The notes under the pieces are model-generated. The model had not been told where the DNA came from and did no database searches. It saw only the letters and a program-made list of their open reading frames with translations. A stretch of DNA of 35,403 bases, taken from NCBI RefSeq assembly GCF_944387675.1, contig NZ_CALXFV010000010.1, positions 1 to 35,403 of the forward strand, in the 5' to 3' direction. Both the position numbers and the translations under genes were made by a program. Of the stretch, positions 11,097 through 28,136 are shown one piece after another; within the stretch, counting starts at the first letter, position 1, and the number at the start of each line of letters is the position of its first letter. This DNA is from an uncultured Flavonifractor sp. (GTDB taxonomy: Bacteria > Bacillota > Clostridia > Oscillospirales > Oscillospiraceae).

Positions 11097-12485
11097 TCAC
11101 GTATGGATGGGCGTATCGTTATGGTAATCCCTCAGGGCTTCCGCGATTTTCTTCTCATACCGCTCCCGGAAGAAGAGGCATTTGGAGGGGTCGCAGCCCA
11201 GCTTGTCCCCGGTCAGGGCCAGGGCCACCGCCCGGCAGCCGCCCGTGCAATAGGGGAAATAGGGGCAGGCGGCGCAGGTCTGGTTGCGGGCCTTCAGGAC
11301 CCCCACTGTGGTACACACCTCGTCCAGATACCGGCCGGACTGGAGGAGCTTTTGCAGCCCCTCCCGCTTGACGTTCCCCAGGCTGTCGCTGTGCTGCTCA
11401 TAGTAGCCCGACATCTGGTGGCAGGGAAACACATTGCCGTTGGCCGCCACGGCTACCATGCCCCGGTTGCCCCGGCAGACCGGTATGGTATCCCGGTACG
11501 TTCCCGCCTCGCACAGGACAGGCCGCAGGCGGTAGCTCCGCTGTGCGGGAAAGAAGGTGAGCAGCTGCCAGATGTCCAGCTCCATGTACTCCAGCTCCTC
11601 CTTGCAGCGAGCCAGCAGCGCCACCATCGCATCAAAATATTCCCGCAGCGTCAGGGTGTATGCCCCGCCGTTGCACACCCACCTGGGAGCCTCGGTGGTG
11701 CGGATGATGCGCATGCGGTTCACCCCCAGCGCCTCCATCCGCTTGATGGTGGGCAGCATACTCTCCAGGTTCCGCTTATGCACATTGGTCTGAACCATAA
11801 CCTGGAAGCCGTTCTCCCGGCAGAGCCGGATGGCCCGCAGGGCGTCCGCCTCCGCGCCCTGGCGGTTGCGCAGCCAGTCGTGATGGCCCAAGCCGTCAAA
11901 GGAGAGTTTGATGAGCGGGAGGCACCCCATGGAGCGAAGCCGGTCCAGGGCCTGCTGATCCAGGAAAAAGCCGTTGGTGTTCAGCTCTTCCACGTACATG
12001 CCCCGCTCGCAGATGCCCTGCATGATCTCAAAGAACTGCCGGTGCAGCATGGGCTCGCCGCCGGTGATGGTAAAGGCGTTGATGCCGCAGTCCCTGGCCT
12101 GATCCAGCAGCCGTTCCGCCTCCGCCAGGCTCCACTCGTCCATCAGCGGGGCGTTGTCCGCCGCGTTGAAGCAGTGCAGACAGTTGTAGTTGCACTTGCC
12201 TGTAATCATCCAGTTCATGGCGGGAAAGTAGCGGTTCTCGCACGCCAGAGGCCGCTGCCACGGAGTCAGTCCGCCCGCCCCCTGGCAGGGCGCGCACAGC
12301 CCACGCTCCGCCAGGGCGGACAAGAGTGCGCTCTCCTCCAGCTCCTGCCGGCCGTCACAGCGGCAGAGCAGCTCAAATTCCTCCTTTTTCAGCCCAAAGG
12401 CGTTGCGCGTCCCCCGCCTGTAGTAGGCATAGGGAACCAGCCACCAGGAACGCAGGGCAATCTGCTCCTTAAGTTGATATCTCAT
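11097..12485 (-). CDS. Radical SAM/SPASM peptide maturase
   Basis: A protein of 462 aa. The N-terminal about 80 residues look like a small winged-helix peptide-recognition region (GLKKEEFELL, then LLSALAERGLC). The radical SAM cluster motif CNYNCLHC has Cys at 98, 102 and 105, and TGGEP follows at about 141-145. The C-terminal SPASM/twitch part is rich in cysteines: VLCEAGTY, VCRGNRG, GNVFPCHQMSG, then CAACPYFPYCTGGCR and GCDPSKC, enough for two extra iron-sulfur clusters. Such enzymes install carbon-sulfur or carbon-carbon crosslinks in ribosomal peptides. ATG 12485 is preferred, with TTTGGAG about ten bases upstream. It is the last gene of the minus-strand RiPP locus, separated from the precursor by a terminator-like hairpin. 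The actual modification is unknown. Confidence 0.9.
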   Translation of the reverse strand: MRYQLKEQIALRSWWLVPYAYYRRGTRNAFGLKKEEFELLCRCDGRQELEESALLSALAERGLCAPCQGAGGLTPWQRPLACENRYFPAMNWMITGKCNYNCLHCFNAADNAPLMDEWSLAEAERLLDQARDCGINAFTITGGEPMLHRQFFEIMQGICERGMYVEELNTNGFFLDQQALDRLRSMGCLPLIKLSFDGLGHHDWLRNRQGAEADALRAIRLCRENGFQVMVQTNVHKRNLESMLPTIKRMEALGVNRMRIIRTTEAPRWVCNGGAYTLTLREYFDAMVALLARCKEELEYMELDIWQLLTFFPAQRSYRLRPVLCEAGTYRDTIPVCRGNRGMVAVAANGNVFPCHQMSGYYEQHSDSLGNVKREGLQKLLQSGRYLDEVCTTVGVLKARNQTCAACPYFPYCTGGCRAVALALTGDKLGCDPSKCLFFRERYEKKIAEALRDYHNDTPIHT

Positions 12486-12509
12486 ACACTTCGCTCCAAA
12501 CATAAAATA

Positions 12510-12550
12510 GGGCAAGGCGGCAGCCTTCCATGAGACCTGCCGCCTTGCCC
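12510..12550 (-). terminator. Attenuator between precursor and radical SAM gene
   Basis: Perfect 14-bp stem (12510-12523 with 12537-12550), 13-base loop, followed on the minus strand by TATTTTATG. Being 25 bases before the maturase start and after the precursor stop, it is likely a leaky terminator that lowers enzyme relative to precursor expression. Confidence 0.75.
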
Positions 12551-12606
12551 CGTCGTTCCATACGCTTCCGCCCCGACCGCTCTCGCCGGATGGAAGACCG
12601 CCGGGT

Positions 12607-12852
12607 TCAGAAGCCGGGCATCCTGTTGCCGCCCAGGACCGAAAACGCATTGCGCTGGGTCTGGGCGCCGCAGTCTCTGCAAACCAGGTAATTGGTGGTA
12701 CCCACCGTCTGATAGTAGGTATTCCTGCTGCCGCACTTGGGGCAGGGGGATTCCAGCGCAGTTTCCTGCGGGGCAAAGCCACCGCCGGCCACGCCGGCCA
12801 GCTGCTCCTCGGACAGCTCCGCCTGACCCTGGACCTTCTTTTCCTCGCTCAT
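12607..12852 (-). CDS. Double-glycine peptide precursor with zinc-ribbon-like core (copy 2)
   Basis: An 81-aa protein. Residues 1-25 form a short charged leader ending ELSEEQLAGVAGGG, the pattern cut by C39 peptidases after Gly-Gly. The remaining core carries C37, C40, C58 and C61 as CPKCGS and CRDCGA, separated by 17 residues, with NTYYQTV and YLVC between them. The core closely matches that of the Nif11-leader protein at 13763-14113. The tail GGNRMPGF is not shared. The start has AAAGGAGGAA upstream. The gene sits between the sigma factor and the radical SAM maturase. It is probably the substrate of both maturase and exporter; a plain cytoplasmic zinc-ribbon protein is the alternative, but the leader argues against it. 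Confidence 0.8.
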   Translation of the reverse strand: MSEEKKVQGQAELSEEQLAGVAGGGFAPQETALESPCPKCGSRNTYYQTVGTTNYLVCRDCGAQTQRNAFSVLGGNRMPGF

Positions 12853-12931
12853 AGTAATTCCTCCTTTTCATTGAGACGTTCCCATCCGCGCTCCTGCTGC
12901 GGACAGGTCTGCGCCTTGTGTCTTGATTCTT

Positions 12932-12948
12932 GTTCCGTCTTTTTATAC
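12932..12948 (-). promoter_or_regulatory. Shared upstream motif, copy in front of precursor 2
   Basis: On the minus strand this reads GTATAAAAAGACGGAAC and ends 79 bases before the precursor ATG. It matches 15 of 17 bases of the motif before the Nif11 precursor (14189-14205). It may be a promoter element for the locus-encoded sigma factor or an activator site. Confidence 0.5.
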
Positions 12949-13004
12949 ACCCGTGGAATCTGTTGGGCTATGGGCATATGGATATAAAATAAATTGGCGG
13001 AGCG

Positions 13005-13493
13005 CTACGCCAGCTGATCCCGCAGCCGGCTCAGCGCCTTTTGGTGGATGACTTTGGCGTTGGCGTAGGACATCTGCATCAGCGCCGCAATTTGCTTCAG
13101 GGTGCGGTTTTCATAGTAGTGGAGCAAAATCAGATCCCGCTGGCGCCGGTCCAGCTCCTCCAAGGCCCGGGCCAACCGCTCCAGCATCTCCTCGCTGAGC
13201 AGGTGTATCTCCAGTCCCTCCGACGGGTCGGCCAGCTCCTCGTTCAGCTCCTGCACCGGCCGCATCCCCCGGTAGTGGTTGAGCACCGTGTTGTGGGTGA
13301 TGGTGTAAATCCAGGTGGAGAGGGAGGCCCGCTCCCGGTCAAAGGTGTCCAGGTTCTGAAAGACCTTCAGAAACACGCTGGACACCAGGTCCTCCCGCTC
13401 CTGGATGTCTCCGACCTTGCCCGCCACATAGCGGGCCACCTTGTCCCGGTACTCCATGTAGATTTGTTCCTTCTGCGCCGCCGTATGCATCAT
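13005..13493 (-). CDS. Sigma-70 family (ECF-like) RNA polymerase sigma factor
   Basis: A protein of 162 aa, the size of an ECF sigma factor. Region 2 is seen in REDLVSSVFLKVFQNLDTFDR and STWIYTITHNTVLNHYR (residues about 34-75). Region 4 is seen in LDRRQRDLILLHYYENRTLKQIA with the helix-turn-helix that follows (SYANAKVIHQKALSRLRDQL). There is no region 1 or 3. ATG 13493 overlaps the TGA of the upstream 63-aa gene as ATGA, with GGAGGG six bases before it, so translation is probably coupled; ATG 13499 is an alternative start. It lies between two precursor genes that share an upstream motif, which makes a locus-specific role likely. A weak hairpin overlaps its stop codon and is followed by T-rich sequence. 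Confidence 0.88.
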   Translation of the reverse strand: MMHTAAQKEQIYMEYRDKVARYVAGKVGDIQEREDLVSSVFLKVFQNLDTFDRERASLSTWIYTITHNTVLNHYRGMRPVQELNEELADPSEGLEIHLLSEEMLERLARALEELDRRQRDLILLHYYENRTLKQIAALMQMSYANAKVIHQKALSRLRDQLA

Positions 13494-13681
13494 GGCCATC
13501 CCTCCGGAAGGTCGGGCGGACGGCGGACCGGCTCCGCCTCTCCGGCGGCCCAGACCTGCTCCAGCGCCTCGTCGCTCAAACCCTCTCCATACCGGTGGAA
13601 GGTGTCCGCGATGAGGGCGTCCAGGCGCTGGTTTTCCTGAAACCGCTGGTAGTCCAGCAGCAGCCTTAAGATCTGCTCCAT
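13490..13681 (-). CDS. Small protein translationally coupled to the sigma factor
   Basis: A protein of 63 aa with no membrane segment, mostly helical and charged (MEQILRLLLDYQRFQENQRL, then ADTFHRYGE and ending in a Pro-rich tail). Its stop overlaps the start of the sigma factor gene, and GGGAGAG precedes its own ATG. I do not recognise a family. Position suggests a cytoplasmic partner of the sigma factor, perhaps an anti-sigma-like regulator, but it lacks the zinc-binding HxxxCxxC motif of the ZAS anti-sigma group. Confidence 0.7.
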   Translation of the reverse strand: MEQILRLLLDYQRFQENQRLDALIADTFHRYGEGLSDEALEQVWAAGEAEPVRRPPDLPEGWP

Positions 13682-13762
13682 AGCTTTCTCTCCCGTTTTA
13701 ATGCCCAGTCTGAGAAACAGATACTCGCCGTCCTTTACAAGCCGGGTATCCCGTTGGCTTCA

Positions 13763-14113
13763 TTATATAATCAGCGGACCGCTGAGATAGATCTCAACCT
13801 TGGCGCCGCAGGAATTGCAGATGAGGTAGCCCTTCTTGTAGGTCACCGACTGATAGGTGGTGTTGGTGGAACCGCATCGGGAGCAGGCATCCCCGGACTT
13901 GGGTCCTCCCTTGCCGCAGCCGCCGCCGGTCACGTTGTCCAGCTCCTGGTCGGACAGCTCTCCCGTCTGGTGCAGCTTGGCAAAATATTCCGCCGCCTGC
14001 TCCTGCGTCAGTTCCATCCCCGCCGTCCCCGCCAGGACAAGCAGTTCTTCCGGCGTCTTGCACGCGTTGGCTTTGCTCAACAGCTCCGGAGTCACAATCT
14101 GTTCCCAATCCAT
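13763..14113 (-). CDS. Nif11-leader RiPP precursor with zinc-ribbon-like core (copy 1)
   Basis: A 116-aa protein. Residues 1-65 match the Nif11-like leader domain, a nitrogen-fixation-protein-derived leader used by many RiPPs: ELLSKANACKTPEELLVLA, then GMELTQEQAAEYF, and GELSDQELDNVTGGG with the Gly-Gly cleavage point at 63-65. The core holds C66, C77, C80, C99 and C102: a CSRCGS pair and a CNSCGA pair separated by 18 residues, with NTTYQSV and GYLIC between. The start is set by GGGAGGAG upstream. It follows the two ABC exporter genes, so export after leader cleavage is expected. Whether the cysteines are crosslinked or bind metal is unknown. Confidence 0.87.
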   Translation of the reverse strand: MDWEQIVTPELLSKANACKTPEELLVLAGTAGMELTQEQAAEYFAKLHQTGELSDQELDNVTGGGCGKGGPKSGDACSRCGSTNTTYQSVTYKKGYLICNSCGAKVEIYLSGPLII

Positions 14114-14188
14114 ATAAATCTCCTCCCAATATTATAATTGCATTTTCTCCCCGCCGGCAGGCGGGGCATCCTTACGAGGATAAAACCC

Positions 14189-14205
14189 GTTTCATCTTTT
14201 TATAC
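14189..14205 (-). promoter_or_regulatory. Shared upstream motif, copy in front of the Nif11 precursor
   Basis: On the minus strand this reads GTATAAAAAGATGAAAC and ends 75 bases before the precursor ATG. TGAAAC resembles an ECF-type -35 box, and an AAGG word follows 15 bases later here and 14 bases later in the second copy. A GC hairpin (about 14148-14166) lies further downstream. Confidence 0.5.
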
Positions 14206-14255
14206 CCCGCCGGCTCCGGGCGGGCCAATCGTACCGCCGCTTTTTCTGCCGGCGC

Positions 14256-16469
14256 TCAGCCCCCTGTTTCCGTCCGGTCTCCCTGAGGAATGTCCAGGCG
14301 CTGGCGGGCCACCAGTTCGGCAAAAAAGCCGCCCGCCGCCAGCAGCTGCTCGTAGGTCCCGTCCTCTATGATTTTACCCTTGTCCAGCACGATAATCCGG
14401 TCGCACCGGCGGATGGTGGACAGCCGGTGGGCGATTACCACCCGGGTGCAGTTAAGCCCGTCCAGGGACTGGGACACCAGCTTCTGGGCCAGATTGTCCA
14501 GGGCGGAGGTGGCCTCGTCAAACGTCAGGATACGGGGCTTGGGGGCGACGGCCCGGGCGATCATCAGCCGCTGCCGCTGTCCGCCGGAGATGCCGCCGCT
14601 CCCCTCGGAGATAATGGTGTGCATCCCCATGGGCATACGGCGGATATCCTCGGCAATCCCGGCCAGCTCCGCCGCCTCCCACGCGTCCTCCAGGGTGAGC
14701 CAGGGGGCGGAAATCACGATGTTGGAGTAGATGTCCCTCTGAAACAGCTTCCCGTCCTGCATCACCACCCCGATCCGCCGGCGCAGGGATTTCAAGTCGA
14801 TACTGTTCAGGTCCTTCCCGTCATAGTAGATGGCCCCCTTCTGGGGCGTCTCAAAGCCCAGCAGCAGCCGCATCAGGGTGGACTTGCCGCAGCCGGTGGT
14901 CCCCACAATGGCCACATACTGACCCGGCTTGATTTTCAGGGAGAGGTTATCCAGCACATTGGGCATGCTCTCATCATACCGGAAACAGACGTTGCTCACC
15001 TCGATCCCGCCGGAGAGCTGGGTGAGCACCTGCTTCCCCTCCGAAATTTCCGGCACGGCGTCCAGAATGGGCTGCACCATATCCAGGGCCGGCTTGAGCT
15101 GTGCCACAGTCAGGGCGATGGAGGACAAGGAGACAAAGGCCCCCGACACCACACCGTAGGCGGTCTGAAAGGCATAGTAGTTTGCCACGCTGACTCCGCT
15201 GATTACCGCGCCGTAGTACAGCGCCAGGGTGCCGAACAGGGTGATGGCCAGGCTGATGACCGGGTTAAGCTTTACAAACATAGGGGGATTGTAGCGCAGG
15301 GCGGTCTCCTTGGCAAACAGGCCGCCCCAATGGGCGAAGGCCCGCTTTTCCGCCCCCGACAGCTTGAGCTTCTGCACCCCGGAAATCAGGGAATAGCTGA
15401 CGCCGCTCTCCTTGGCGGCAAACTCCATCTGCTTTTTCGTGATCCGCCCCTGAATCACGGTGGACAGCAGGGAAAAGCCCGCCGTGGCCAGAAGGATGAC
15501 AATGGCCGGAACGGCCAGAGCGGGGGCATAGAGAAAAATCTGGGGCAGATACACCAGGGAGCACACCGAGGTCAGAGCTGTGGAGAGCAGCGACGAGATG
15601 ACCATGGTGCAGAGGACGTTGATGTACTGGGTGCGTTGAAACAGTTCGCCGGAACTGTAACTGCGGAAAAAAGCGGCCGGCAGGGACAGCACCCGCATCA
15701 TGGTGGCCGCCTGAACGGAGAACTGAATCTTGGTGCTGATTCTGGCCATGAGCAGAGCCTTGACTGAGCCAAACAGCGCCGTGCTGACAGACACACACAC
15801 CAGAAACACCGTCATGGCCATCACCGGCTGAAGGCTGTCCCCCGTTACGATATCGGAAAAGATGATATGATTGAGCACAGGGTTGAGCAGGCCCACCAGG
15901 GTGACCGCCAGGGCGGCCAGCCCGGTCAGAACAAAATCCGCCGGCTGCAGGGCCTCCACCATATAGCGCAGCAGGCCAGCCACCGTCATCCGCGTCAGGG
16001 GAAAGGGTTTGTAAAAACAGATGGCCTCCGGATCAAAGCCCCCCTCGTTTTTCCGGTTCACCTTGACGTACTTGCCCCGGACACGGTCATAAAAGCGGTA
16101 CCCGGAGAGGCCGGCGGGAATCAGAGCGATTACGCCGCCGTCCCCCTTGCTCACCGCCAGCATGGGACCCATGGCGTCCCGGTACCAGCCCGGCTCCAGC
16201 CGGACCATCCGGCGCATGACTCCGTGGGGCCGCATCAGATACTCCAGCTGCTCGTTGAGGTCCCGGAATCCCTCCGGAATCTCCCGGCTTTTGATGTGAT
16301 AAACTTTCAGAATTTCCGCCACCGCGTCCTGGACAGCCTGCCGGTCGTCCTCCATGGCTTTGGAAAACCGCCGGCCCATCACCGCATCCCCGATGTGGAC
16401 AAACACATCGGAGAACAGCTCGTCGTCGGCCTCCCTGCGCTGCCGGATCTGTTCGTCAAACCAGCCCAT
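14256..16469 (-). CDS. ABC exporter without peptidase domain (NHLM-type, second transporter)
   Basis: About 737 aa. A soluble N-terminal part of roughly 175 residues is followed by a six-helix ABC exporter membrane domain (about 180-470) and a C-terminal ATPase domain: Walker A GTTGCGKST near residue 520, signature SGGQRQR, Walker B ILTFDEATSALD and switch VVIAHRLST. It has no C39 peptidase. Pairs of one C39 and one non-C39 ABC protein are known from Nif11/nitrile-hydratase-leader (NHLM) microcin loci, and this gene fits the second member. ATG 16469 is preferred over GTG 16478 because GGGGGTGGG lies just upstream. It starts 13 bases after the C39 transporter stop, in the same operon. It could form a heterodimer with that protein or export separately. 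Confidence 0.9.
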   Translation of the reverse strand: MGWFDEQIRQRREADDELFSDVFVHIGDAVMGRRFSKAMEDDRQAVQDAVAEILKVYHIKSREIPEGFRDLNEQLEYLMRPHGVMRRMVRLEPGWYRDAMGPMLAVSKGDGGVIALIPAGLSGYRFYDRVRGKYVKVNRKNEGGFDPEAICFYKPFPLTRMTVAGLLRYMVEALQPADFVLTGLAALAVTLVGLLNPVLNHIIFSDIVTGDSLQPVMAMTVFLVCVSVSTALFGSVKALLMARISTKIQFSVQAATMMRVLSLPAAFFRSYSSGELFQRTQYINVLCTMVISSLLSTALTSVCSLVYLPQIFLYAPALAVPAIVILLATAGFSLLSTVIQGRITKKQMEFAAKESGVSYSLISGVQKLKLSGAEKRAFAHWGGLFAKETALRYNPPMFVKLNPVISLAITLFGTLALYYGAVISGVSVANYYAFQTAYGVVSGAFVSLSSIALTVAQLKPALDMVQPILDAVPEISEGKQVLTQLSGGIEVSNVCFRYDESMPNVLDNLSLKIKPGQYVAIVGTTGCGKSTLMRLLLGFETPQKGAIYYDGKDLNSIDLKSLRRRIGVVMQDGKLFQRDIYSNIVISAPWLTLEDAWEAAELAGIAEDIRRMPMGMHTIISEGSGGISGGQRQRLMIARAVAPKPRILTFDEATSALDNLAQKLVSQSLDGLNCTRVVIAHRLSTIRRCDRIIVLDKGKIIEDGTYEQLLAAGGFFAELVARQRLDIPQGDRTETGG

Positions 16470-16482
16470 TTCGCCCACCCCC

Positions 16483-18663
16483 TTATTCGTTGGATATCAG
16501 CCGGGTGTACACCCCGCCCAGGGCGTACAGCTGGTCATGGGTCCCCCGCTCCACCACCTTACCCTGGTCCAGCACGATAATTTCGTCGCAGTCCCGGATG
16601 GTGGACAGCCGGTGGGCCACCACAATACAGGTGATCCCCCGGTCCTTGATGGCCTGAACCACACCGTACTCGGTCTTTGCGTCCAGAGCGGAGGTGGCCT
16701 CGTCCAAAATCACAATGGTTGGGTCCTGGGCCAGGACCCGGGCAATCTCCAGCCGCTGCCGCTGCCCGCCGGAGAAGTTCTTGCCCCCCTCGGTAATCAT
16801 GCAGCGGTACCCGCCGTCCCGCTGCATGATGTCCTCATGGAGCTGGGCGTCCCGGGCGGCCAGGATCATCTCAAAGTCCTCGATGGAGCTGTCCCACATC
16901 TTGATGTTGTCGGCAATGGTGTCCTCAAACAGGATGATGTCCTGATCCACCACCGCCAGGGAGCCGGTAAATACGCTGCGGTCAATCTCCAGGATAGGCT
17001 TGCCGTCAAACAGGATTTCCCCGCTCCAGGGCTGGTAGAGCCCGGAAATCAGCTTGGACAGGGTGGATTTCCCACAGCCGGACGGTCCCACAAAAGCCAC
17101 CCGGCTTCCCGGCCGGAGGGTCAGGTCAAATCCCTCAATCAAAGGCGGAGCCAGGCGGGAGTACCCAAAGGTCACATTCCGCATTGCCAGGGCTCCGGAC
17201 AGCTTGCTGTACTGATCGGATTTCTCTTCCTTTCCCCCATAGACCACGTCGATGGGATACTCCATCACATCCTCCACCCGCTCCATCTGGGTGCGCATCT
17301 CCTGGATGGTCTGACCGGCTGAGATGAGGGTGACGGCGGGCTGGGTAAAGGAGGACAAAAAGCCCTGGAAGGCCAGAATCATACCGGCGGTAAACTGCCC
17401 CCGGATGGTCAGCCACACCCCCAGCATAAGGACCGCCGTGTTGGCCAGGGTGGCCACCAGCTGGGGCAGCATCCCAAGGTACTGGTTCAGGCGGGTAAAG
17501 CGCACCGTCTGAGCATTGACGCTGGCCTGATAGCCCGCCCATTTTTCAAAAAAGCCGTTCTCCGCCCCGCTGGCCTTGATGGTCTCAATCATCTCAATAC
17601 CGGCCACGGTGGCTCCGGCCAGCTTGCCCTCGTCCCGCATCTGTACCCGGGTGATGTTGATCCGCTTCCGGGAGATCAGGTTGGACAGGCCCAGGTTGAT
17701 GGCAATGGAGGCCACCCCCACCAGGGTCAGCAGTACATTGTACCGGAGCATGACCACCAGATAGACCACCATCAGAATTCCGTTCAGCGCCAGGGGGGCG
17801 AAGGTGTTGACCAGGGTGTTGGCAATCTCGGCGTTGGTGCTCTGCCGCGTCTGGATGTCCCCCGCCATCCGCTGGGAGAAAAACTCCATGGGCATGCGCA
17901 GCACCTGCCACATAAAGGTGGTGCTGCCCACCACCGCCAGCTTGCCGTCAATGCGCAGGGCGTAAATGGCCTGGAGCCATGCCACCACCAGCTGCAAAAT
18001 ACTGATTCCCGCCAGGGCGGCCAGGAAGGGCAGCAGCCACTCCGGGTTTTGGCCGGTCAGCAGTCTGTCCAGGAAGATACGGGAAAAAACCGGATTCATC
18101 AGACCCACCAGGGCGGAAATCAGGGTGGTCAACACCAGGAAGGCCACCGCCGCACCGGCGCCTTTCAACCGATTCCGGGCAAAGGCCAGCATGGATTTTG
18201 GCTTGCCGCTGGGGGTGAAGTCCTCCCCCGGCTCTATCATCAGGCACACACCGGTAAAGGACCTGTCAAAGGTCTCCGCCGAGACCAGATAGGTCCCCTT
18301 GGCCGGGTCATTCAGCACCGCCCGGTCCCCCTTAAAGCCATCCAGCACCACAAAATGATTGAAGTTCCAGTGGATAATGCAGGGAAACCTGCCGTTCTGC
18401 TTCAAAAATTCCGGCTCATAGCGGTAGCCCTTGGCGGTCATGCCATAGCTCCGGGCGGCCCGGAGCACATTCTTGGCGCTGGAGCCGTCCCGGGATACCC
18501 CGCAGTCCGCCCGGACCTGCTCCAGGGGAATCCACTTGCCGTAGTAGGCCAAAATCATGGCCAGGGAGGCCGCGCCGCACTCCAGCGCCTCCATCTGCAT
18601 AATCACCGGCACCTTTGCATAGCCGGTGCGCACCGGCTGCCTGGTCTGGTTTTTCCGCTTCAT
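16483..18663 (-). CDS. C39 peptidase-containing ABC exporter (NHLM-type)
   Basis: A protein of 726 aa. The N-terminal C39 peptidase has the catalytic Cys at 29 (ALECGAASLAM), His near 101 (HWNFNHFVVLDG) and Asp near 118 (LNDPAKG). The six-helix membrane domain spans about 160-440, and the ATPase domain has Walker A VGPSGCGKST, signature FSGGQRQR, Walker B IVILDEATSALD and switch VVAHRLST. It cuts leaders after Gly-Gly and pumps the core across the membrane, so all three catalytic residues needed for processing the two precursors are present. It is nine bases from the HlyD-like gene upstream and 13 from the second ABC gene downstream. Confidence 0.95.
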   Translation of the reverse strand: MKRKNQTRQPVRTGYAKVPVIMQMEALECGAASLAMILAYYGKWIPLEQVRADCGVSRDGSSAKNVLRAARSYGMTAKGYRYEPEFLKQNGRFPCIIHWNFNHFVVLDGFKGDRAVLNDPAKGTYLVSAETFDRSFTGVCLMIEPGEDFTPSGKPKSMLAFARNRLKGAGAAVAFLVLTTLISALVGLMNPVFSRIFLDRLLTGQNPEWLLPFLAALAGISILQLVVAWLQAIYALRIDGKLAVVGSTTFMWQVLRMPMEFFSQRMAGDIQTRQSTNAEIANTLVNTFAPLALNGILMVVYLVVMLRYNVLLTLVGVASIAINLGLSNLISRKRINITRVQMRDEGKLAGATVAGIEMIETIKASGAENGFFEKWAGYQASVNAQTVRFTRLNQYLGMLPQLVATLANTAVLMLGVWLTIRGQFTAGMILAFQGFLSSFTQPAVTLISAGQTIQEMRTQMERVEDVMEYPIDVVYGGKEEKSDQYSKLSGALAMRNVTFGYSRLAPPLIEGFDLTLRPGSRVAFVGPSGCGKSTLSKLISGLYQPWSGEILFDGKPILEIDRSVFTGSLAVVDQDIILFEDTIADNIKMWDSSIEDFEMILAARDAQLHEDIMQRDGGYRCMITEGGKNFSGGQRQRLEIARVLAQDPTIVILDEATSALDAKTEYGVVQAIKDRGITCIVVAHRLSTIRDCDEIIVLDQGKVVERGTHDQLYALGGVYTRLISNE

Positions 18664-18672
18664 GCTCTCGCC

Positions 18673-19146
18673 TCAGTTCCACAAAAAGGAGATGGGGGCC
18701 GTGCGCTCGGTCACAACCTCGGCCCGGTACACGCCGCTCTCCACGCTTCCGTCCAGCGTCAGGGTGTACACCCACTCCCCCGGCTGAAGCTGGCCGGCAT
18801 ACTGGAGGGTCTCCTCCAGCTCCTGGGGCGGGGCAGCGGGGAAATCAGACACCGAGGCAACGGTATAGGCCGTGTCGTTGATTCGCACCGTCATCCCCGC
18901 TTCAAGGTCCGCCCCGGCGCTTTCCGCCACATAGCAGTTGGTGCATCCCGCCTCGCTCACCGCCACGGCAGGCACCACCGTGTCCAGCCGTCCAAATACC
19001 CCCCACACACAGGCCCCCGCCAGCAGCACAATTACCCCCGCCAGAGTCGCCCAAACGCCGGGGGAGGATACCCGGATATAGTCGTTCAGCTGCTCCGGGG
19101 AGGAGATGGTATCTATGCTCTTCTGTCTGAAAACTTGTTTTTCCAT
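18673..19146 (-). CDS. Short HlyD-like secretion adapter
   Basis: A protein of 157 aa. The N-terminus is cytoplasmic (SIDTISSPEQLNDYI, typical of the NHLM secretion adapter), followed by one membrane helix near residues 32-52 (VWATLAGVIVLLAGACVWGVFG). The outer part is beta-barrel-like (MTVRINDTAYTVASVSDFP, GEWVYTLTLDGSVESGVYRAEVV). It is far shorter than usual HlyD/NHLM adapters and lacks the coiled-coil hairpin, so only the lipoyl/barrel portion is kept. The start is uncertain; ATG 19146 or ATG 19161 are possible and neither has a strong ribosome binding site. It is the first gene of the export operon, downstream of a clear promoter and palindrome. Confidence 0.78.
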   Translation of the reverse strand: MEKQVFRQKSIDTISSPEQLNDYIRVSSPGVWATLAGVIVLLAGACVWGVFGRLDTVVPAVAVSEAGCTNCYVAESAGADLEAGMTVRINDTAYTVASVSDFPAAPPQELEETLQYAGQLQPGEWVYTLTLDGSVESGVYRAEVVTERTAPISFLWN

Positions 19147-19206
19147 AACCACGGCCCCCATATCACCCTGCGGCGTCCAAACCGGCGGCGGGCCGATTTT
19201 CTCCCT

Positions 19207-19234
19207 ATAATTGGGATCATAAGATCCCAATTGT
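19207..19234 (-). promoter_or_regulatory. Palindrome at the export-operon promoter
   Basis: AATTGGGATC (19209-19218), ATAA, GATCCCAATT (19223-19232): a perfect 10-bp inverted repeat that overlaps the -10 box and the expected transcription start. The position fits a repressor operator. No regulator for it is visible except the sigma factor and GntR protein, neither of which is a clear match. Confidence 0.55.
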
Positions 19235-19258
19235 ATAATTTTCTGCCTCAAAAGGCAA
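19230..19258 (-). promoter_or_regulatory. Sigma-A promoter of the RiPP export operon
   Basis: On the minus strand, -35 TTGCCT (19258-19253) and -10 TACAAT (19235-19230) are 17 bases apart, upstream of the HlyD-like gene. Confidence 0.65.
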
Positions 19259-19295
19259 GGGTACAATAAAAAAATGATATCCCTCTGGACAGGGA

Positions 19296-19368: not shown

Positions 19369-20304
19369 TCACCAAATAAACTCATAGAGAATTTGGGCAA
19401 GCACCGTCAAGGCGGGCAATGTCAGCAGGCTGAGAATGGTGGATTGGATCACCGCCCGGGCGCCCGTTTTGGCGTCACGATGATATAGCTGGGAAAACGT
19501 GCTGGAGAGCGTGGCAACCGGACACGCGGACAAGATTACCATCGTAAGATAGAGCATTCTCTCCAAATGTAACGGCAGAAGGGCCACTAAAACGCACACC
19601 GGAACAAAGATCAGCCGCACAAAGGAAGTAAAATAAAGCGTTTTATCATAAAAAATACTGCGGATATCCGCGCTTGCCATCTGAGCACCTACAATCAGCA
19701 TGGCCAGCGGCGTATTCATGCCGGCCAAAAGGCTCACCGCTTTATCCGCCGGCTCAGGCAGTCTTTGACCCAGAACCATCAGCAGCACACCCAGCAGAAA
19801 GCATAGGGTACCCGGATTCAGTATCGCCTTGGACGACAGCTTTTCCTCGCCGGAGCCCATCAACCAAATGCCATGGGTCCAGACCATCAGATTAAACGCC
19901 GCCCCTCCGACGGCCACATAGACCATTGCCTCCCCTCCGAAGGTGGCCTGTACCAACGGCACTCCCAGGTATCCGATATTTCCGTATATGATACTGTAGC
20001 GCAGGGTAATTTTCAGATCCCTAGGCTGTCTGCGGAACAATACCTGTGCCAAAACAGCGCTGGCAGCCAGGATGACCATCATTATGACAAAGGTCTTGGC
20101 AAATATCTTCCAGGTCTCTTCATTGCTCTTTTCCGGCATATTGGTTAAAATGAGGCAGGGTGTGATAATGGTGTTTAACAGCTTTGCCAGTTGGTTCTGG
20201 GTTGGTTCGGATAAGGACCCGCGCTTTCCCAGCAAGAGGCCAACCACCATAATCAGCAGCAGCGTGATCACATTGGTCACGATCAGCAACGCGTTTGAAA
20301 GCAT
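19369..20304 (-). CDS. AEC family transporter
   Basis: A protein of 311 aa with ten hydrophobic segments arranged as two five-helix halves, as in the auxin efflux carrier (AEC) family. Family-like stretches include NTIITPCLILTNM near residue 45, YGNIGYLGVPLVQATFG near 115, and VILSACPVATLSSTFSQLY near the end. Bacterial members carry small organic acids such as malate, malonate or lactate. ATG 20304 is used because AGAGG lies about six bases upstream; a GTG two codons earlier overlaps that site. It follows the aldo/keto reductase on the same strand after a terminator and may move a substrate or end product of the pathway. Confidence 0.85.
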   Translation of the reverse strand: MLSNALLIVTNVITLLLIMVVGLLLGKRGSLSEPTQNQLAKLLNTIITPCLILTNMPEKSNEETWKIFAKTFVIMMVILAASAVLAQVLFRRQPRDLKITLRYSIIYGNIGYLGVPLVQATFGGEAMVYVAVGGAAFNLMVWTHGIWLMGSGEEKLSSKAILNPGTLCFLLGVLLMVLGQRLPEPADKAVSLLAGMNTPLAMLIVGAQMASADIRSIFYDKTLYFTSFVRLIFVPVCVLVALLPLHLERMLYLTMVILSACPVATLSSTFSQLYHRDAKTGARAVIQSTILSLLTLPALTVLAQILYEFIW

Positions 20305-20413
20305 ACGCACCTCTTTTCTCGCAAACGGAATCCTATTTCCCTTTCCCGGTTATCCGTTTTACGAGCATCCTTTGAACGCCGCTTCCCACAGCCGGCTGAG
20401 ATGGGATAAAAAC

Positions 20414-20450
20414 GCCTTTTGCCGCCGCAAAACATGCAGCGGCAAAAGGC
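20414..20450 (-). terminator. Intrinsic terminator after the aldo/keto reductase
   Basis: Perfect 12-bp stem (20414-20425 with 20439-20450), followed on the minus strand by GTTTTTATC. Confidence 0.85.
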
Positions 20451-20527
20451 AGCCATATGCGCAGCAGTCAGATAGGGGGTATCTGGCTGCCGGCATCTTT
20501 TCCGCCGGGCCGTTCCCAGTTTTTTGC

Positions 20528-21517
20528 CTATCGCATGGGTGCCGACCCGTCAAAGTCAATATAAGTCCCTATGGCCCGGTTTAGTTCCGTCATATCTGTT
20601 TCTGTTAGGGACCAATCAAAGGCCGCACAGTTCTCATCCGCCTCCGCCGGGTTCCGCACGCCGCAGAGCGCAGTGGCAACAAAGGGCTGCTGCGTGGTCC
20701 AGTTCAGGGCAATTTGAGGCAGCGGTTTGCCCGTGCGGGCTGAAATCTGGTCCATGACCGCAAGAACCTTCATGACCTTGGAAAATTGTGGCTCCTGGAA
20801 GAAGGGATAAAAGCTGCTGCGGGGATCATCAGCGCCGAATTGAGGCAGCGTGCGGAAGGTTCCCGTCAGGATGCCCGCCCCTAAGGAACCATAGGTCATG
20901 GCGTCTATCCCCCGCTCCATGGCCCATTTCATCAGCGGTTCATCCCGACGGACCACCATGGAGAAAGGAGGCTGGATGACGTCGATTTGGGCAAATTTCT
21001 GGCACTCCTGGATCTGTTCCCGATCAAAGTTGGAAAGGCCAATAAACCGAATCTTCCCCTGCGCCTTTAACGTATTCAGCGCCTCCATGGTTTCGGCCAG
21101 CGGCGTGTCATAGTCGGGCCAGTGGACAAAATAGAAATCAATATAGTCCGTACCCAGCCGCCGCAGAGACTGTTCGCACTCAAACAGAACGTTGGGATAG
21201 CTTCCATCTCTCAGCGGTTCCTTTGAGGGGTAACGCATTTGCTTGGCGGTGGTATTGCCGATTCCGAATTTGCTGGAAATAAGCAGTCTGGTACGGTCGC
21301 ATCCTTTGAGCGCCTTACCCACCACTTCTTCAGAGCAGCCCTCTCCATACACGGGGGCTGTATCAATTAAATTTACACCGTGCTCAAACATGGCATGGAT
21401 GGCGTTTATGGAATCCTTCTCCGTTACCGTCCCATATCCAAAGTTGCCCAAGGCCCATGTACCCACGCCCAGCACGGAAAGATCCACGCCGGCGCTGTCC
21501 AGGTGTTTATACCGCAT
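20528..21517 (-). CDS. Aldo/keto reductase
   Basis: A protein of 329 aa. The catalytic tetrad is visible: Asp in NLIDTAPVYG, Tyr in the same segment, Lys in LLISSKFG and His in YFVHWPDYD. NADPH-binding residues lie in the C-terminal part (TALCGVRNPAEADEN). It reduces aldehydes or ketones to alcohols, or the reverse, in the cytoplasm. ATG 21517 has GGGGAGG upstream; a TTG codon just before it is an alternative. It lies 89 bases downstream of the iron alcohol dehydrogenase on the same strand, so both probably handle aldehydes or keto groups produced in the block. The substrate is not readable. Confidence 0.9.
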   Translation of the reverse strand: MRYKHLDSAGVDLSVLGVGTWALGNFGYGTVTEKDSINAIHAMFEHGVNLIDTAPVYGEGCSEEVVGKALKGCDRTRLLISSKFGIGNTTAKQMRYPSKEPLRDGSYPNVLFECEQSLRRLGTDYIDFYFVHWPDYDTPLAETMEALNTLKAQGKIRFIGLSNFDREQIQECQKFAQIDVIQPPFSMVVRRDEPLMKWAMERGIDAMTYGSLGAGILTGTFRTLPQFGADDPRSSFYPFFQEPQFSKVMKVLAVMDQISARTGKPLPQIALNWTTQQPFVATALCGVRNPAEADENCAAFDWSLTETDMTELNRAIGTYIDFDGSAPMR

Positions 21518-21606
21518 CAATCACAACCTCCCCACAAAGCCAAAGTCCGGCGGCGGGGCGATACCATTGGACACCGGCCCCATTTCCGCGTGGTCTTCTG
21601 GCAGAG

Positions 21607-22776
21607 TTACATATAGTTATCATACAGCGATGCCAGATAGGCTTCGCACAGCGGCAGGTCAATTTCAATATCAAAGGCGTGGCTCAGGAAATTCTCGTTG
21701 ATCATAGGAGCATAAGCCATTGTCTGCTCTCTGCTCACGCCATGGGCGGCCAGGGAGGGAATTCCCACCCGGCGCATCAGCGCCCTGGCCTCATTTGCCA
21801 CAGTTTTACCCAGATTGCTTGCGGTCTCGGACACGTCCAGACCCATGGCCCGGCCTAGAGCCGCCGTCTTCTCTGGAAAATGTTTTCCCATCAGCTCAAT
21901 GATGGGCGGAACGTTCAGCGCACAGGCCCATCCGTGGGCCATATGGAAATCGTGGCCGATAAAATGGGCGGTGCAGTGGCCGATATGGACACCTGCCTCG
22001 CTGAAAGAAATTCCGGCAAAGTTGCTGGCCAAGGCGGTATATTCCCGCGGTTCCAGCGCGTTGACATCCTGGCAGGCTTTGGGCAGCCACTGGTATAGCA
22101 GGCGAATGGCCTCATACGCCAGCAGATCGGAATGGGGGGTGTTTTTCTTTCCGCCCAAAGCCTCCAACGCGTGGGAAAAAGCGTCCATGCCGGTAAACGC
22201 GGTCCCCTGGGCGGGCAGCCCCACTGCCAGCGTGGGGTCCACAATGCCGTAGGAGGGATTGCACAAAACGCCGATCTTCGCATTTTCCACCTCGCTGCTT
22301 ACGACGCCGCAATAGGTGGACTCCGCACCGGTACCAAAAGTGGTAGGAACTAAAACCACTGGCAGGGCGGGATTGGCATACTTCTTTTCCCCAAAGAGAT
22401 AGGTATTGAGGTGGTTCAGGATATCGTCAATGTCATTGGGAATCATGATGGAAGAAATTTTTGCTGTATCCATGCTGCTTCCGCCGCCCAAGCCAATCAG
22501 GCCGTCAATCTGATGCTCTAGGGCAAAGGTCCGGGCCTCGCGCAGCGCTGAATCCGGGCATTCTGGCTGCGCCCTATCCCAGAGCAAGGCCGTTACGCCC
22601 GCTTTTTCCAGGGAAGCCATTACCTTTTTGTCGTGTCCCACACCCACGACGCCGGCATCCGTAATTACCATTGCCTTGTTGATCCCCAGATTTTTTGCAA
22701 TCTCTCCCACCATTTCAACGGAACCGTTTCCGAATTGGATCGGCGCCAGCTGGGTATAGACACCCGACTTCAGCAT
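21607..22776 (-). CDS. Iron-containing alcohol dehydrogenase
   Basis: A protein of 389 aa, standard for the group III alcohol dehydrogenases. The NAD-binding motif GLGGGSSMDTAK is near residues 92-103 and PTTFGTGAE near 138. The metal ligands are the Asp in GIVDPTLAVGLP and the histidines in DAFSHALEALGG, IGHCTAHFIGHD and HMAHGWACALN. Related enzymes reduce lactaldehyde, butanal or similar aldehydes. ATG 22776 has AAGGAGG upstream; longer readings upstream lack this. It sits after the aldolase terminator and before the aldo/keto reductase. Reduction of an aldehyde released by the HpaI-type aldolase is a reasonable guess. Confidence 0.92.
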   Translation of the reverse strand: MLKSGVYTQLAPIQFGNGSVEMVGEIAKNLGINKAMVITDAGVVGVGHDKKVMASLEKAGVTALLWDRAQPECPDSALREARTFALEHQIDGLIGLGGGSSMDTAKISSIMIPNDIDDILNHLNTYLFGEKKYANPALPVVLVPTTFGTGAESTYCGVVSSEVENAKIGVLCNPSYGIVDPTLAVGLPAQGTAFTGMDAFSHALEALGGKKNTPHSDLLAYEAIRLLYQWLPKACQDVNALEPREYTALASNFAGISFSEAGVHIGHCTAHFIGHDFHMAHGWACALNVPPIIELMGKHFPEKTAALGRAMGLDVSETASNLGKTVANEARALMRRVGIPSLAAHGVSREQTMAYAPMINENFLSHAFDIEIDLPLCEAYLASLYDNYM

Positions 22777-22824
22777 ATGCGTTTTTCCTCCTTTTTTATT
22801 TGGCCCTCCGGCCCACACAAAAGA

Positions 22825-22865
22825 AATGCCGTGGGGCAAAGCAGACCCCTTTGCTCCACGGCATT
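22825..22865 (-). terminator. Terminator or attenuator after the HpaI-type aldolase
   Basis: 16-base arms (22825-22840 and 22850-22865) pair with one mismatch, and TTTCTTTTG follows on the minus strand. It may reduce readthrough into the alcohol dehydrogenase gene. Confidence 0.75.
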
Positions 22866-22879
22866 ATTGACTTGATTCT

Positions 22880-23653
22880 TTATCCCAGTACGCTCTTGAC
22901 CGCCGCGTTCAGCGCATTGTAGTAATAGCCGTAGTCGCAGCCCACCGTCACATGCTTGAAACCCTCAGCCAGGCGGGTCTTGGCCACATTCTCGTCGCCG
23001 CAGAACACCATGCAGAACTTGCCGGCCTCCTCGCAAGCCAGGCGGATCCGTACCAGCGCGTCCTTGAAACTGGGATGGTCAAACTGGCAGGGAATACCCA
23101 TGGCAATGGACAGGTCAAAGGGGCCAATAAAAATGCCGTCCACGCCGTTCATCTTTGCGATCTCCTCAATGTGCTCCAGGGCGCCAACTGTCTCGCACTG
23201 GGGAATAATCAGGCTCTCACTGTTGCTAATCTCCGTATACTTGTTCAGGCCCTGCATCACATGATCCGCATGGCCGTAGCCGGCTCCTCTGCCGTAGGCA
23301 AAACCGCGATCGCCAATGGGGAAATACTTGCCGTAGGAGATAATCTCCTTGACCTGCTCCACACTGTGTACCTGGGGAATGATCAGGCCCTTGGCGCCAA
23401 CATCCAGCATCTTCAAAATGGAGTTCCGGTTGGAGTCCTTGACCCGCACCAGGGGGGTGCTGTTGTGCAGTTCAAACACACGGATCATGTTCATGGCGCT
23501 CTCCACATCAAAGGGACCATGCTCGGTATCGATAATGGCGTAGTCCATATCCGTCATGGCCACGATTTCCGCGGTGCTGGCGTCCCCGGCATTGATGAAG
23601 AGGCCCATAGTCTTTTCGCCGCGCATGATCTTTTCTTTCCAGATGTTTTTCAT
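22880..23653 (-). CDS. HpcH/HpaI family aldolase
   Basis: A protein of 257 aa. It shows the class II pyruvate aldolase pattern: IIDTEHGPFD near residue 41 (active-site His), LVRVKD near 68, GLIIPQVHS near 89, the metal ligand Glu in PQCETVGALEHIE near 152, and the Asp in FIGPFDLSIAMG near 178. Relatives split 2-keto-3-deoxy sugar acids or 4-hydroxy-2-keto acids into pyruvate and an aldehyde. AAAGGAGAA precedes the start. It follows the hydroxyacid dehydrogenase by 27 bases, so both should be translated from one mRNA. A dehydrogenase producing the keto acid followed by this cleavage is consistent, but unproven. Confidence 0.9.
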   Translation of the reverse strand: MKNIWKEKIMRGEKTMGLFINAGDASTAEIVAMTDMDYAIIDTEHGPFDVESAMNMIRVFELHNSTPLVRVKDSNRNSILKMLDVGAKGLIIPQVHSVEQVKEIISYGKYFPIGDRGFAYGRGAGYGHADHVMQGLNKYTEISNSESLIIPQCETVGALEHIEEIAKMNGVDGIFIGPFDLSIAMGIPCQFDHPSFKDALVRIRLACEEAGKFCMVFCGDENVAKTRLAEGFKHVTVGCDYGYYYNALNAAVKSVLG

Positions 23654-23680
23654 TTTCCGTTCTCCTTTCTAAACCTATGA

Positions 23681-24679
23681 TTATCCAATCTGAGCGCTCA
23701 GTTCCTTGCGGTTGACAATCCTCCGCACCAGAGTGTCATTGAAGTCCTTCTTCAGGATCTGGCAAGCGGTTACCGCCACCTTCTCCAGCAGTTCGGCGTT
23801 GGAATCCACGGTGGAGAACGCCGCATGGGGGCTTACCACCACCCGTCCGGAATCAAACAGTCGGTAATTGGGCTGTGTCAGCGGCTCAAATTCCACCACA
23901 TCCAGGCCTGCCGCAGCAATCTTGCCGGAGTGAATGCCGTCCAGCAGATCCTCCTCGCAGATCAGCGGCCCGCGGGAGGTGTTGACAATCATCACCCCGT
24001 CCTTCATCCTGGCGATGGTATCCTTGTTGATAATATGGTAGGTGCTGTCAAACAGCGGCGTATGCAGGGAGATGATGTCGGAGCGCTCCAGCAGTTCGTC
24101 CAGCTCCACCTTCACGGCGTGATTCTGCTCAAATACCTCATTGGGCAGGAAGGGATCGTACGCCACGATCTTTCCGCCGAAGGCCGCCATATATCCCGCA
24201 GCCCGGCGGGCAATGTTGCCAAAGCCAACAAAGCCCACCGTCTGCTTGGACAGCCGGTGCATGGGATAACCGCTGGCCGCCACCCACTTGCCCTTGCGCA
24301 CCTCATCGTTGTAGAACGTCACTTTACGGCAGACATCCAGGATCATGGCCACGGTGTGGGTGGCTACCTCTTCGATACAGTAGTCCGGTACGTTACACAC
24401 AAAAATGCCCTTTTTGGTGCAGGCATCCACATCGATTACGTCGTAGCCGATACCAAAGCGCACCATAACCTTGCACTTTTCCAAGGAATCAATGATCTTG
24501 GGGGTCATTTTGGTGTAAATGTCCAGAATAGCGTCCGCGTCTTTGCAGGCTGCAATGACTTCCTCCTCCGACGCACAGTTCAGAGGCACATACTCCATCC
24601 CGTAGGCATCGCATACTCTTTGCTGAATGCTGATGTCCATCGAATAGACAGGCTTGTTATCCACGAGCACAACCTTCAT
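23681..24679 (-). CDS. D-2-hydroxyacid dehydrogenase (phosphoglycerate dehydrogenase/CtBP type)
   Basis: A protein of 332 aa. The NAD-binding fold reads VGFGNIARRAAGYMAAFG near residue 150. The catalytic set is the Arg in VNTSRGPL near 233, a Glu shortly after in VEFEPL, and the His in SPHAAFST near 290. The family oxidises or reduces 2-hydroxy/2-keto acids with NAD(P). CtBP-like members are common in Firmicute catabolic loci. ATG 24679 has GAGGAGG upstream. A promoter-like pair (TTGGAA, 17 bases, TATAAA) precedes it but leaves almost no leader. It is downstream of the TRAP genes after a terminator hairpin and upstream of the aldolase. Confidence 0.9.
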   Translation of the reverse strand: MKVVLVDNKPVYSMDISIQQRVCDAYGMEYVPLNCASEEEVIAACKDADAILDIYTKMTPKIIDSLEKCKVMVRFGIGYDVIDVDACTKKGIFVCNVPDYCIEEVATHTVAMILDVCRKVTFYNDEVRKGKWVAASGYPMHRLSKQTVGFVGFGNIARRAAGYMAAFGGKIVAYDPFLPNEVFEQNHAVKVELDELLERSDIISLHTPLFDSTYHIINKDTIARMKDGVMIVNTSRGPLICEEDLLDGIHSGKIAAAGLDVVEFEPLTQPNYRLFDSGRVVVSPHAAFSTVDSNAELLEKVAVTACQILKKDFNDTLVRRIVNRKELSAQIG

Positions 24680-24731
24680 GCCGGATTCCTCCTCAGATTT
24701 TTATATTCCGCGTTGCATATGATTCCAAACC

Positions 24732-24763
24732 CTCCACGAGCCGCCGTAAGGCGGCTCGTGGAG
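24732..24763. terminator. Hairpin between dctP and the hydroxyacid dehydrogenase
   Basis: Perfect 14-bp stem (24732-24745 with 24750-24763), loop GTAA. The T-run is better on the plus strand (CTTTTTG) than on the minus strand, so for the minus-strand genes it is probably a partial terminator or an mRNA 3'-end stabiliser for the TRAP transcript. Confidence 0.7.
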
Positions 24764-24789
24764 CTTTTTGTTTGAGCCGCTGGTCACTT

Positions 24790-25866: not shown

Positions 25867-25938
25867 TACCCTTCTTTCTTTGTTTTTGGTTATTCCAGGT
25901 GCTTTGCATGACGTATTAAGGGATCGCTGTCTGTTACA

Positions 25939-27225: not shown

Positions 27226-27717
27226 TTATAACGTCTCCTCCTTTCCTTTTCCACGCCCCAGGAATATGCGTACATACTTCTGTACCAGACGAATCAGGGA
27301 GAGAATCAGCCCGCAGAACAGGGAAAAATAGACGACGTACATGGGCAGGCGCATGGCGGAGCTGGTCTGTCCGGATTCAATCAGCTGGGCCACCACGTTC
27401 CAGCCAGGCTGAATCATATAAATGCAGAACAGGGCAAAGCCCACGTCGCACACAACACCCAGCGGCTTTTTCAGCTTGGGGATCAGGGTCTCAAGGATGT
27501 CGATACGGGTGTGGCAGTTGTAGCGCACGGAGTAGCTCAGCGCCAGATAAGAGAACCAGATGAACAGGTAGCGGTTCAGCTCCTCGGGCCAGGACAGCGA
27601 GTTAGTGAATACGTACCGCATGACAACCTGGAGTGTGGATACTGCGGTGGCAATCCAAACAATGGCAATCATAATGGTCTCTTCAAAATGTTTGTCCAAC
27701 CAGCTAAGTACCTTCAA
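27226..27717 (-). CDS. TRAP transporter small permease (DctQ family)
   Basis: A protein of 163 aa with four membrane helices and the DctQ-like middle segment SLSWPEELNRYLFIWFSYLALSY and RIDILETLIPKL. It caps and stabilises the large permease. The predicted start is TTG, with GGGAGG seven bases upstream; no ATG is near. It is the first gene of the TRAP operon and is preceded by a strong promoter about 140 bases upstream. Confidence 0.9.
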   Translation of the reverse strand: MKVLSWLDKHFEETIMIAIVWIATAVSTLQVVMRYVFTNSLSWPEELNRYLFIWFSYLALSYSVRYNCHTRIDILETLIPKLKKPLGVVCDVGFALFCIYMIQPGWNVVAQLIESGQTSSAMRLPMYVVYFSLFCGLILSLIRLVQKYVRIFLGRGKGKEETL

Positions 27718-27859
27718 TCAAATCCTCCCTTTCTTTTCTCTGCCCATAAAGCACCGGGCAGCTTTTTGCCGGCGAAGAGGCTTATTTTGCCTGCGTTGCG
27801 CGTTACAGGCACTTCCCACAAAAGACCTCCTTCTGCTTCATCCTCTTCTGTGCAAATTC

Positions 27860-28096: not shown

Positions 28097-28136
28097 CTTA
28101 AAAAAAAGTATATTTATTAGGCAGGAAGGTAGACGA

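Follow-up and report, generated by a model that had tools for sequence, protein, structure and literature searches.

The 35,403-nucleotide contig C10 (NZ_CALXFV010000010.1) of an uncultured Flavonifractor sp., analyzed here as a whole and referred to as the window, encodes on its minus strand (11097–19266) a locus comprising a pair of ATP-binding cassette (ABC) exporters, two Gly-Gly precursor peptides, termed preA and preB, and a radical S-adenosylmethionine (SAM) enzyme with a SPASM domain. On balance, we lean towards the view that this cluster makes and secretes small folded zinc-ribbon peptides, with an edit of preA by the radical SAM enzyme near cysteine C66. The source assembly comprises 2.23 Mb at a completeness of 85.6%. 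All genes listed in the original prediction for this DNA (exporters, HlyD-like adapter, precursors, sigma factor and radical SAM/SPASM enzyme, all on one strand) were recovered. They are read in the order HlyD-like adapter, C39-ABC exporter, second ABC exporter, preA, a 63-amino-acid (aa) protein absent from the earlier list, a sigma factor of the extracytoplasmic function (ECF) type, preB and radical SAM/SPASM enzyme. Features of the export, precursor and maturation genes are given below; L numbers denote loci in other contigs, and ORF stands for open reading frame.

18673..19146, minus strand: short HlyD-like export adapter, 157 aa from the ATG at 19146 (TIGR03794 31.5 bits over 46 of 421 positions, cut-off 156.2; similar short ORFs in 42 of 80 radical SAM loci)
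16483..18663, minus strand: ABC1, C39 peptidase-permease-ATPase exporter of the NHLM type (TIGR03796 961.8 bits, cut-off 853.3; Peptidase_C39 3.9e-34)
14256..16478, minus strand: ABC2, the peptidase-free second subunit of the exporter, NHLM type (TIGR03797 718.3 bits, cut-off 709.4)
13763..14113, minus strand: preA, 116-aa precursor with a Nif11-like leader ending in Gly-Gly, followed by the core (TIGR03798 30.2 bits, cut-off 32.3; TFIIB zinc-binding 24.9 bits, cut-off 29)
13922..14113, minus strand: preA leader, residues 1–64, ending LDNVTGG (sequence; alignment A3)
13916..13918, minus strand: C66, the preA core cysteine adjoining the predicted cut (column nearly invariant in A3)
13808..13885, minus strand: preA zinc-ribbon pattern C77-x2-C80 ... 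C99-x2-C102 (four invariant columns; beta strands in the model)
12607..12852, minus strand: preB, 81-aa precursor with a short non-Nif11 leader ending in GG and a zinc-ribbon core (L057, L087 and L170 have comparable ribbon ORFs with short leaders)
12670..12744, minus strand: preB zinc-ribbon pattern C37-x2-C40 ... C58-x2-C61 (sequence; weak Pfam zinc-ribbon matches)
11097..12485, minus strand: radical SAM/SPASM enzyme, 462 aa, with an N-terminal domain resembling a recognition element (residues about 1–67, from the model) (PF04055 4.1e-21, PF13186 2.8e-06; invariant cysteines; nearest structures SkfB, SuiB and PqqE)

For the radical SAM gene, a 561-aa frame was rejected since it uses a false GTG start overlapping preB; alignment supports the ATG at 12485 instead. 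No match at gathering score was obtained in an Rfam scan of the window.

In preA, the Gly-Gly site separates leader and core as LDNVTGG/G in alignment A3. One cysteine directly follows this site, and the pattern CxxC-x18-CxxC comes after it. In preB, a short leader ending VAGG precedes a similar ribbon pattern; a Nif11 leader and an N-terminal core cysteine are both absent. The four-cysteine cores described in the original prediction thus apply to preB, whereas the preA core holds five cysteines, the extra one being that next to Gly-Gly. Both leader and ribbon assignments fall below curated cut-offs: besides the TIGR03798 score listed above, preA reached 17.8 against 23.8 bits for PF07862, preB was not among the TIGR03798 matches listed, and the Pfam zinc-ribbon gathering score of 29 was missed by preB (26.4) as well as by preA. 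The columns C77, C80, C99 and C102 are invariant in 29 of 29 rows of A3, most of which were picked for the ribbon pattern; the sequence P0008 has C-x-C at the second knuckle. The structure model of the preA core, obtained at moderate confidence, shows three strands that may form a beta ribbon, and its structure matches include zinc-ribbon chains of NrdR, TFIIS, RNA polymerase I, Trm112 and ELOF1. Stand-alone homologues of the cores had been named earlier as evidence that would speak against an exported peptide; in a check of limited scale (E <= 0.001, 147 genomes of the order), the preA core matched only the two precursors of the window itself. For preB, the only homologue at E <= 0.001 was a near-identical copy. 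Elsewhere in the same genome, a 7-kb contig (C106; L048:82–636) encodes a second Nif11-type precursor with CxxC pairs, and no match to the radical SAM enzyme or the exporter was found on that contig.

The gene set recurs in related bacteria. Of 394 genomes of the order, 14 (own genome counted) encode the radical SAM enzyme at E <= 1e-40, nine sequences being at least 41% and five 31–32% identical. In a scan of named genomes, 220 places encode a relative, and the best 80 of these 220 were kept. Nif11-leader ORFs accompany 64 of the 80 relatives, ABC1 46, ABC2 43, the HlyD-like gene 42 and a sigma factor 22, while 35 have at least one ribbon pattern on a Nif11-leader ORF; since many contigs end close by, these counts are lower bounds. 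Zinc-ribbon-like cores therefore do accompany this radical SAM family, as had been asked of the co-occurrence. One frequent arrangement runs from HlyD through ABC1 and ABC2 to between one and ten Nif11 genes, then radical SAM and sigma factor; the exporter follows the radical SAM gene in a rumen-type group, and L096 has eleven Nif11 genes. Named isolates encoding the enzyme include Sporofaciens musculi, Petralouisia muris, Murimonas intestini and Eubacterium sp. 14-2. Within the genus, the locus looks accessory because no preA match (E <= 0.01) was found in any of 19 other genomes. A record titled Methanosarcina sp. UBA11020 (L095:9528–11344) encodes a ribbon precursor together with a 50% identical radical SAM enzyme; this is likely binning contamination, or else a transfer to an archaeon.

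In order to judge the ribbon signal across related cores, cysteine spacings were counted in 211 distinct cores, taken from 216 distinct precursors of 72 loci and including three from loci with a distant radical SAM enzyme. The C-x2-C spacing occurred 296 times, compared with 105.9 in 500 shuffles (standard deviation 9.6, maximum 133), and was the only one enriched, with x0, x1 and x3–x8 all under expectation; core starts were set by a regular expression, by which some leaders were cut too early. Moreover, proline was 5.5-fold over background after the first cysteine and glycine 4.6-fold after the second, as in zinc knuckles. A stricter set of 155 cores, with starts set by the end of the leader profile, gave 222 against 83.7 in shuffles. 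From this set, 62 of 244 Nif11 ORFs were dropped, having no GG near the profile end (shorter rumen-type leaders among them), and the distant-radical-SAM loci L042–L044, the loci L045–L048 and the duplicate loci L035 and L036 were left out. Controls were drawn from the NHLM ABC2 genes, found at 31 places in 391 genomes of the class, of which the 30 outside the window were examined. The analysis of 155 cores leaves out the control loci L169 (genome has the radical SAM enzyme) and L184 (enzyme in the stretch), and its control set of 16 is also without both L172 precursors, the L167 precursor and one from L182. Fisher values are descriptive only, because cores within one locus are not independent. 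A profile of 29 ribbon precursors (E <= 0.001) matched 1385 predicted proteins. Among 124 listed proteins (120 listed of the 1385, plus those of another search, two near-copies of the window precursors excluded), at least two CxxC were present in 99 and a cysteine among core residues 1–3 in 116, shares biased upward because the profile was built from ribbon sequences.

In the radical SAM/SPASM enzyme, PF04055 and PF13186 score over cut-off, and the cysteines of the CxxxCxxC motif (C98, C102, C105) and seven of the SPASM region (C337, C355, C404, C407, C413, C417, C436) are invariant. In a confident model (predicted local distance difference test 92.9), residues 1–67 fold as beta-beta-beta-alpha-beta-alpha-beta, a unit that may be read as a recognition element of ribosomally synthesized and post-translationally modified peptides (RiPP). 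The solved structures nearest to this model are RiPP maturases; the matches are headed by SkfB, SuiB, PqqE and anSME, with TigE, ChlB and EpeE further down, and SkfB was also the best structure match by sequence (8e-19). No NCBIfam cut-off was reached among the 25 of 72 matches listed (TIGR04103 69.7 against 725 bits, StsB 88.6 against 625, PapB 63.8 against 340), and TIGR04064 was not among these 25; the family appears uncharacterized. Of the lanthionine synthetase expected in a lanthipeptide cluster, no LanC-like match was found among the eight locus proteins in a Pfam scan. Near a 47% identical enzyme, a precursor ending GG-D-C (L105:12854–13264) has by eye a leader of the nitrile-hydratase type (NHLP), and the enzyme may for this reason serve another leader type. 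More distant enzymes (31% identical) adjoin Nif11 precursors with repeated C-x-C-V-x-G-G-G-G type cores (L061:12146–13050 onwards, L064:12146–13084 onwards, L043:3426–4687), seemingly another RiPP type.

Several comparisons separate this enzyme from the ribbon. Ten radical SAM loci carry a LanC-like cluster protein, eight of them with readable cores. Ribbons were found on 0 of 22 cores in these loci versus 97 of 189 in the other radical SAM loci, and N-terminal cysteines on 17 of 22 versus 157 of 189. Counted by locus, ribbons occurred in 0 of 8 versus 39 of 62 (leaving 23 of the 62 LanC-free loci with no ribbon on their Nif11 cores); these counts take Nif11-leader cores only, L054 and L057 being scored ribbon-free despite short-leader ribbon ORFs. 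A phylogenetic pair test of LanC against ribbon had only three independent pairs, which puts significance out of reach. Conversely, the exporter of L170 is followed by two ribbon ORFs with Gly-Gly, and the single-contig genome of this locus (G530) contains no member of the radical SAM family at E <= 1e-25. L172 holds two Nif11-type ribbons without cysteine at the core start, and no match to the enzyme was found within its 19.7-kb stretch. In L057, whose enzyme is 62% identical, the Nif11 precursors lack a ribbon and have just one cysteine close to where the core begins, while two separate short-leader ribbon ORFs, overlapping a longer frame, lack an N-terminal cysteine. A cysteine at the cleavage site was present in 174 of 211 related cores versus 4 of 20 control Nif11 cores (counted by eye over all distinct control precursors, L169 left out; 2 of 20 with ribbon); other control counts were 4 of 16, and 4 of 18 with the two L172 precursors added by hand (ribbons 2 of 18). 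Because the LanC-like loci, L170 and L172, and L057 all separate enzyme and ribbon, it is the cysteine beside the cut that correlates better with the radical SAM enzyme. The L172 genome does, however, hold radical SAM enzymes of 26–30% identity elsewhere, and the four control cores show that a cysteine beside the cut is not exclusive to radical SAM loci. Another control NHLM locus (L163:11943–15398) encodes four Nif11 precursors with spaced cysteines and cores starting with LFGI- or NIFGD-type motifs, with no match to the enzyme in the stretch.

Of the original prediction, the NHLM-exported leader peptides, the radical SAM/SPASM enzyme of a peptide type and the zinc-ribbon-like cores were supported, but the link between enzyme and ribbon proved weaker. 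In particular, crosslinking of the four ribbon cysteines by the enzyme is not supported, given the ribbons without it (L170, L172), its presence beside non-ribbon cores and the separate peptides of L057. The corresponding alternative, in which thioether crosslinks of the sactipeptide or ranthipeptide type are placed on the ribbon cysteines and the resemblance to a ribbon only follows from the cysteines being paired, is considered unlikely. It is consistent with the nearest solved relative by sequence being SkfB, a RiPP maturase that forms a thioether, and with the frequency of ribbon cores beside the enzyme (74 of 155), compared with few in control NHLM loci (2 of 20 by eye). Besides the enzyme-free ribbons next to the exporter, the lack of ribbons in loci with a LanC-like enzyme and the single cysteine in some partner cores (L035/L057) argue against it, as do the zinc-knuckle proline and glycine, which have no known role in thioethers. 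On these points, a thioether-only reading of the CxxC pairs was rejected.

Regarding export, the C39 domain of ABC1 aligns over positions 2–132 of 133 of the Pfam family, and the motifs ECGAAS, HFVV and NDP, which we take to be its catalytic residues, are present. Within the NHLM cassette, ABC1 and ABC2 exceed the TIGR03796 and TIGR03797 cut-offs, and the HlyD type (TIGR03794) falls below its own. The adapter start is most likely the ATG at 19146. Among the 80 relatives, the 42 HlyD-like ORFs measure 129–239 aa, 38 of them within 129–170 aa; the short protein is a recurring short form, and a one-off truncation of HlyD was accordingly rejected.

Under the proposal of secreted zinc-ribbon peptides, the RRE-like N-terminal domain of the radical SAM enzyme would recognize the leader (RRE, RiPP recognition element), and the enzyme would act first, on leader-bound preA near the cysteine following the cut. 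The C39 domain of the exporter pair would then cut the Gly-Gly leaders of preA and preB, and the four ribbon cysteines would likely stay free to bind metal. PreB may be exported without the edit because a Nif11 leader and an N-terminal cysteine are missing. As a first guess, the product could be a secreted peptide weapon, since cores are numerous and variable and leaders are alike. Whether the peptides are instead secreted metal scavengers (zincophore-like) or metal-buffering peptides was weighed and found improbable. Peptide metallophores for copper are in print, and the metal-site pattern, the export and the multiple variants per locus would suit such a role, but no zinc uptake transporter or Zur-type regulator was found among the annotated recurrent neighbor families (SpoIIE, STAS, MATE, LanC-like, DUF7005 and others; not every cluster is annotated), and many divergent cores are not obviously needed for scavenging. 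That the ribbons are intracellular regulators resembling precursors, the exporter carrying something else, is very improbable: zinc ribbons are usually intracellular and several of the chains matched by structure belong to transcription and translation complexes, but the Gly-Gly leaders, the C39 exporter directly adjoining in many loci, sets of 10–11 leader genes per locus (L039, L096) and the absence of a preA core match (E <= 0.001) from 146 other genomes of the order speak against it.

The genes and elements that may control the locus are the following:

14189..14205, minus strand: upstream element GTATAAAAAGATGAAAC, 76 nucleotides before preA
13490..13681, minus strand: conserved 63-aa partner of the sigma factor, bearing a leader-like LSDEALEQVWAAGE motif (of 27 loci with a sigma match, 20 have a homologue, window counted)
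13005..13499, minus strand: ECF-type sigma factor (TIGR02937 101 bits, cut-off 42.9)
12932..12948, minus strand: upstream element GTATAAAAAGACGGAAC, 80 nucleotides before preB

The element GTATAAAAAGAYGRAAC, derived from the two sites that it describes, is common to the upstream regions of preA and preB, 76 and 80 nucleotides before their starts, and its last 16 bases occur without mismatch at only these two places in the assembly. The linked sigma factor may control the locus through this shared element. The element is claimed for the window only, because a regular-expression scan before the Nif11 genes of 14 loci, the majority having a sigma match, yielded scattered hits only; a shared ECF-type promoter in relatives was rejected on this basis. 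The C-terminal motif LSDDDLExVNAAGE of the 63-aa partner closely resembles the end of Nif11 leaders, and the corresponding small proteins in L096:599–796 and L103:2076–2255 carry a real Gly-Gly (AAGG); for these reasons, the sigma-linked protein may mimic a leader or be a peptide that is itself processed. Furthermore, SpoIIE phosphatases recur near relatives in 24 of 86 loci, STAS proteins in 17 and MATE transporters in 18, which suggests partner-switch control in some lineages; these families and the LanC-like one are BLAST clusters, with one representative each scanned against Pfam.

Next to the locus, the region 19369–28444 has a guanine-plus-cytosine content of 0.43–0.57, compared with 0.60–0.65 in most of the flanks. 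It encodes a Mem_trans transporter, an aldo/keto reductase-like ORF (by eye), Fe-ADH, HpcH aldolase, 2-hydroxyacid dehydrogenase and a DctPQM TRAP transporter, and is perhaps an acquired catabolic island.

Compared with known systems, the enzyme shares the SPASM radical SAM fold with SuiB and with the sactipeptide and ranthipeptide maturases SkfB, StsB and PapB, SkfB and SuiB being its nearest structures; it misses the NCBIfam cut-offs of StsB and PapB, and its substrates differ in carrying zinc-knuckle patterns. The cores resemble the cellular zinc ribbons of TFIIB, NrdR, TFIIS and RPB9 in the CxxC-CxxC pattern and modelled beta strands. The latter are domains of intracellular proteins, whereas the ribbon here follows an export leader. 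The exporter, the Nif11 and NHLP leaders and their radical SAM partners are described in the available parts of the work of Haft and co-workers (PMC2887384, PMC3023750). To the extent covered by these parts, the Nif11/NHLP precursors with NHLM cassette (Haft 2010, PMC2887384) correspond to the present locus in the exporter pair TIGR03796/TIGR03797, leaders of the Nif11 kind, hypervariable cores and several precursors per locus. In contrast, HlyD is short here and fails TIGR03794, the preA leader lies just under TIGR03798, and zinc-ribbon cores are not mentioned in those parts. Likewise, the Nif11-associated maturases (TIGR04064, Haft 2011, PMC3023750, in part; TIGR04103) share with the present enzyme the position of apparent sole maturase beside Nif11-type precursors, but it scores far below the TIGR04103 cut-off. 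Zinc-ribbon cores were not found in titles or abstract beginnings of the literature on RiPPs or bacteriocins, Nif11 with radical SAM enzymes, NHLM, metallophores and gut radical SAM enzymes, most subscription papers being outside the coverage. The machinery is thus known in kind, and the cargo is new as far as this literature search shows.

Beyond the window, it is tentatively proposed, at close to even chances, that folded zinc-ribbon mini-proteins form a large and rapidly diversifying repertoire which Clostridia secrete via bacteriocin-type exporters, that the scaffold is a metal-held fold and not a set of enzyme-made crosslinks, and that the linked radical SAM enzyme makes a separate change at the cysteine next to the cut, regardless of how the core folds. 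Should this be true, export machinery of the RiPP type would deliver ready-folded metal-binding mini-proteins, unlike the crosslinked peptides known for this exporter. A large unstudied set becomes testable, because the ribbon profile reaches the 1385 predicted proteins, and for the radical SAM family the question is raised of what happens at the first core cysteine. Since named isolates carry the enzyme, this work need not wait for uncultured bacteria. That dozens of related bacteria share the gene set likely points to a new class of secreted peptide.

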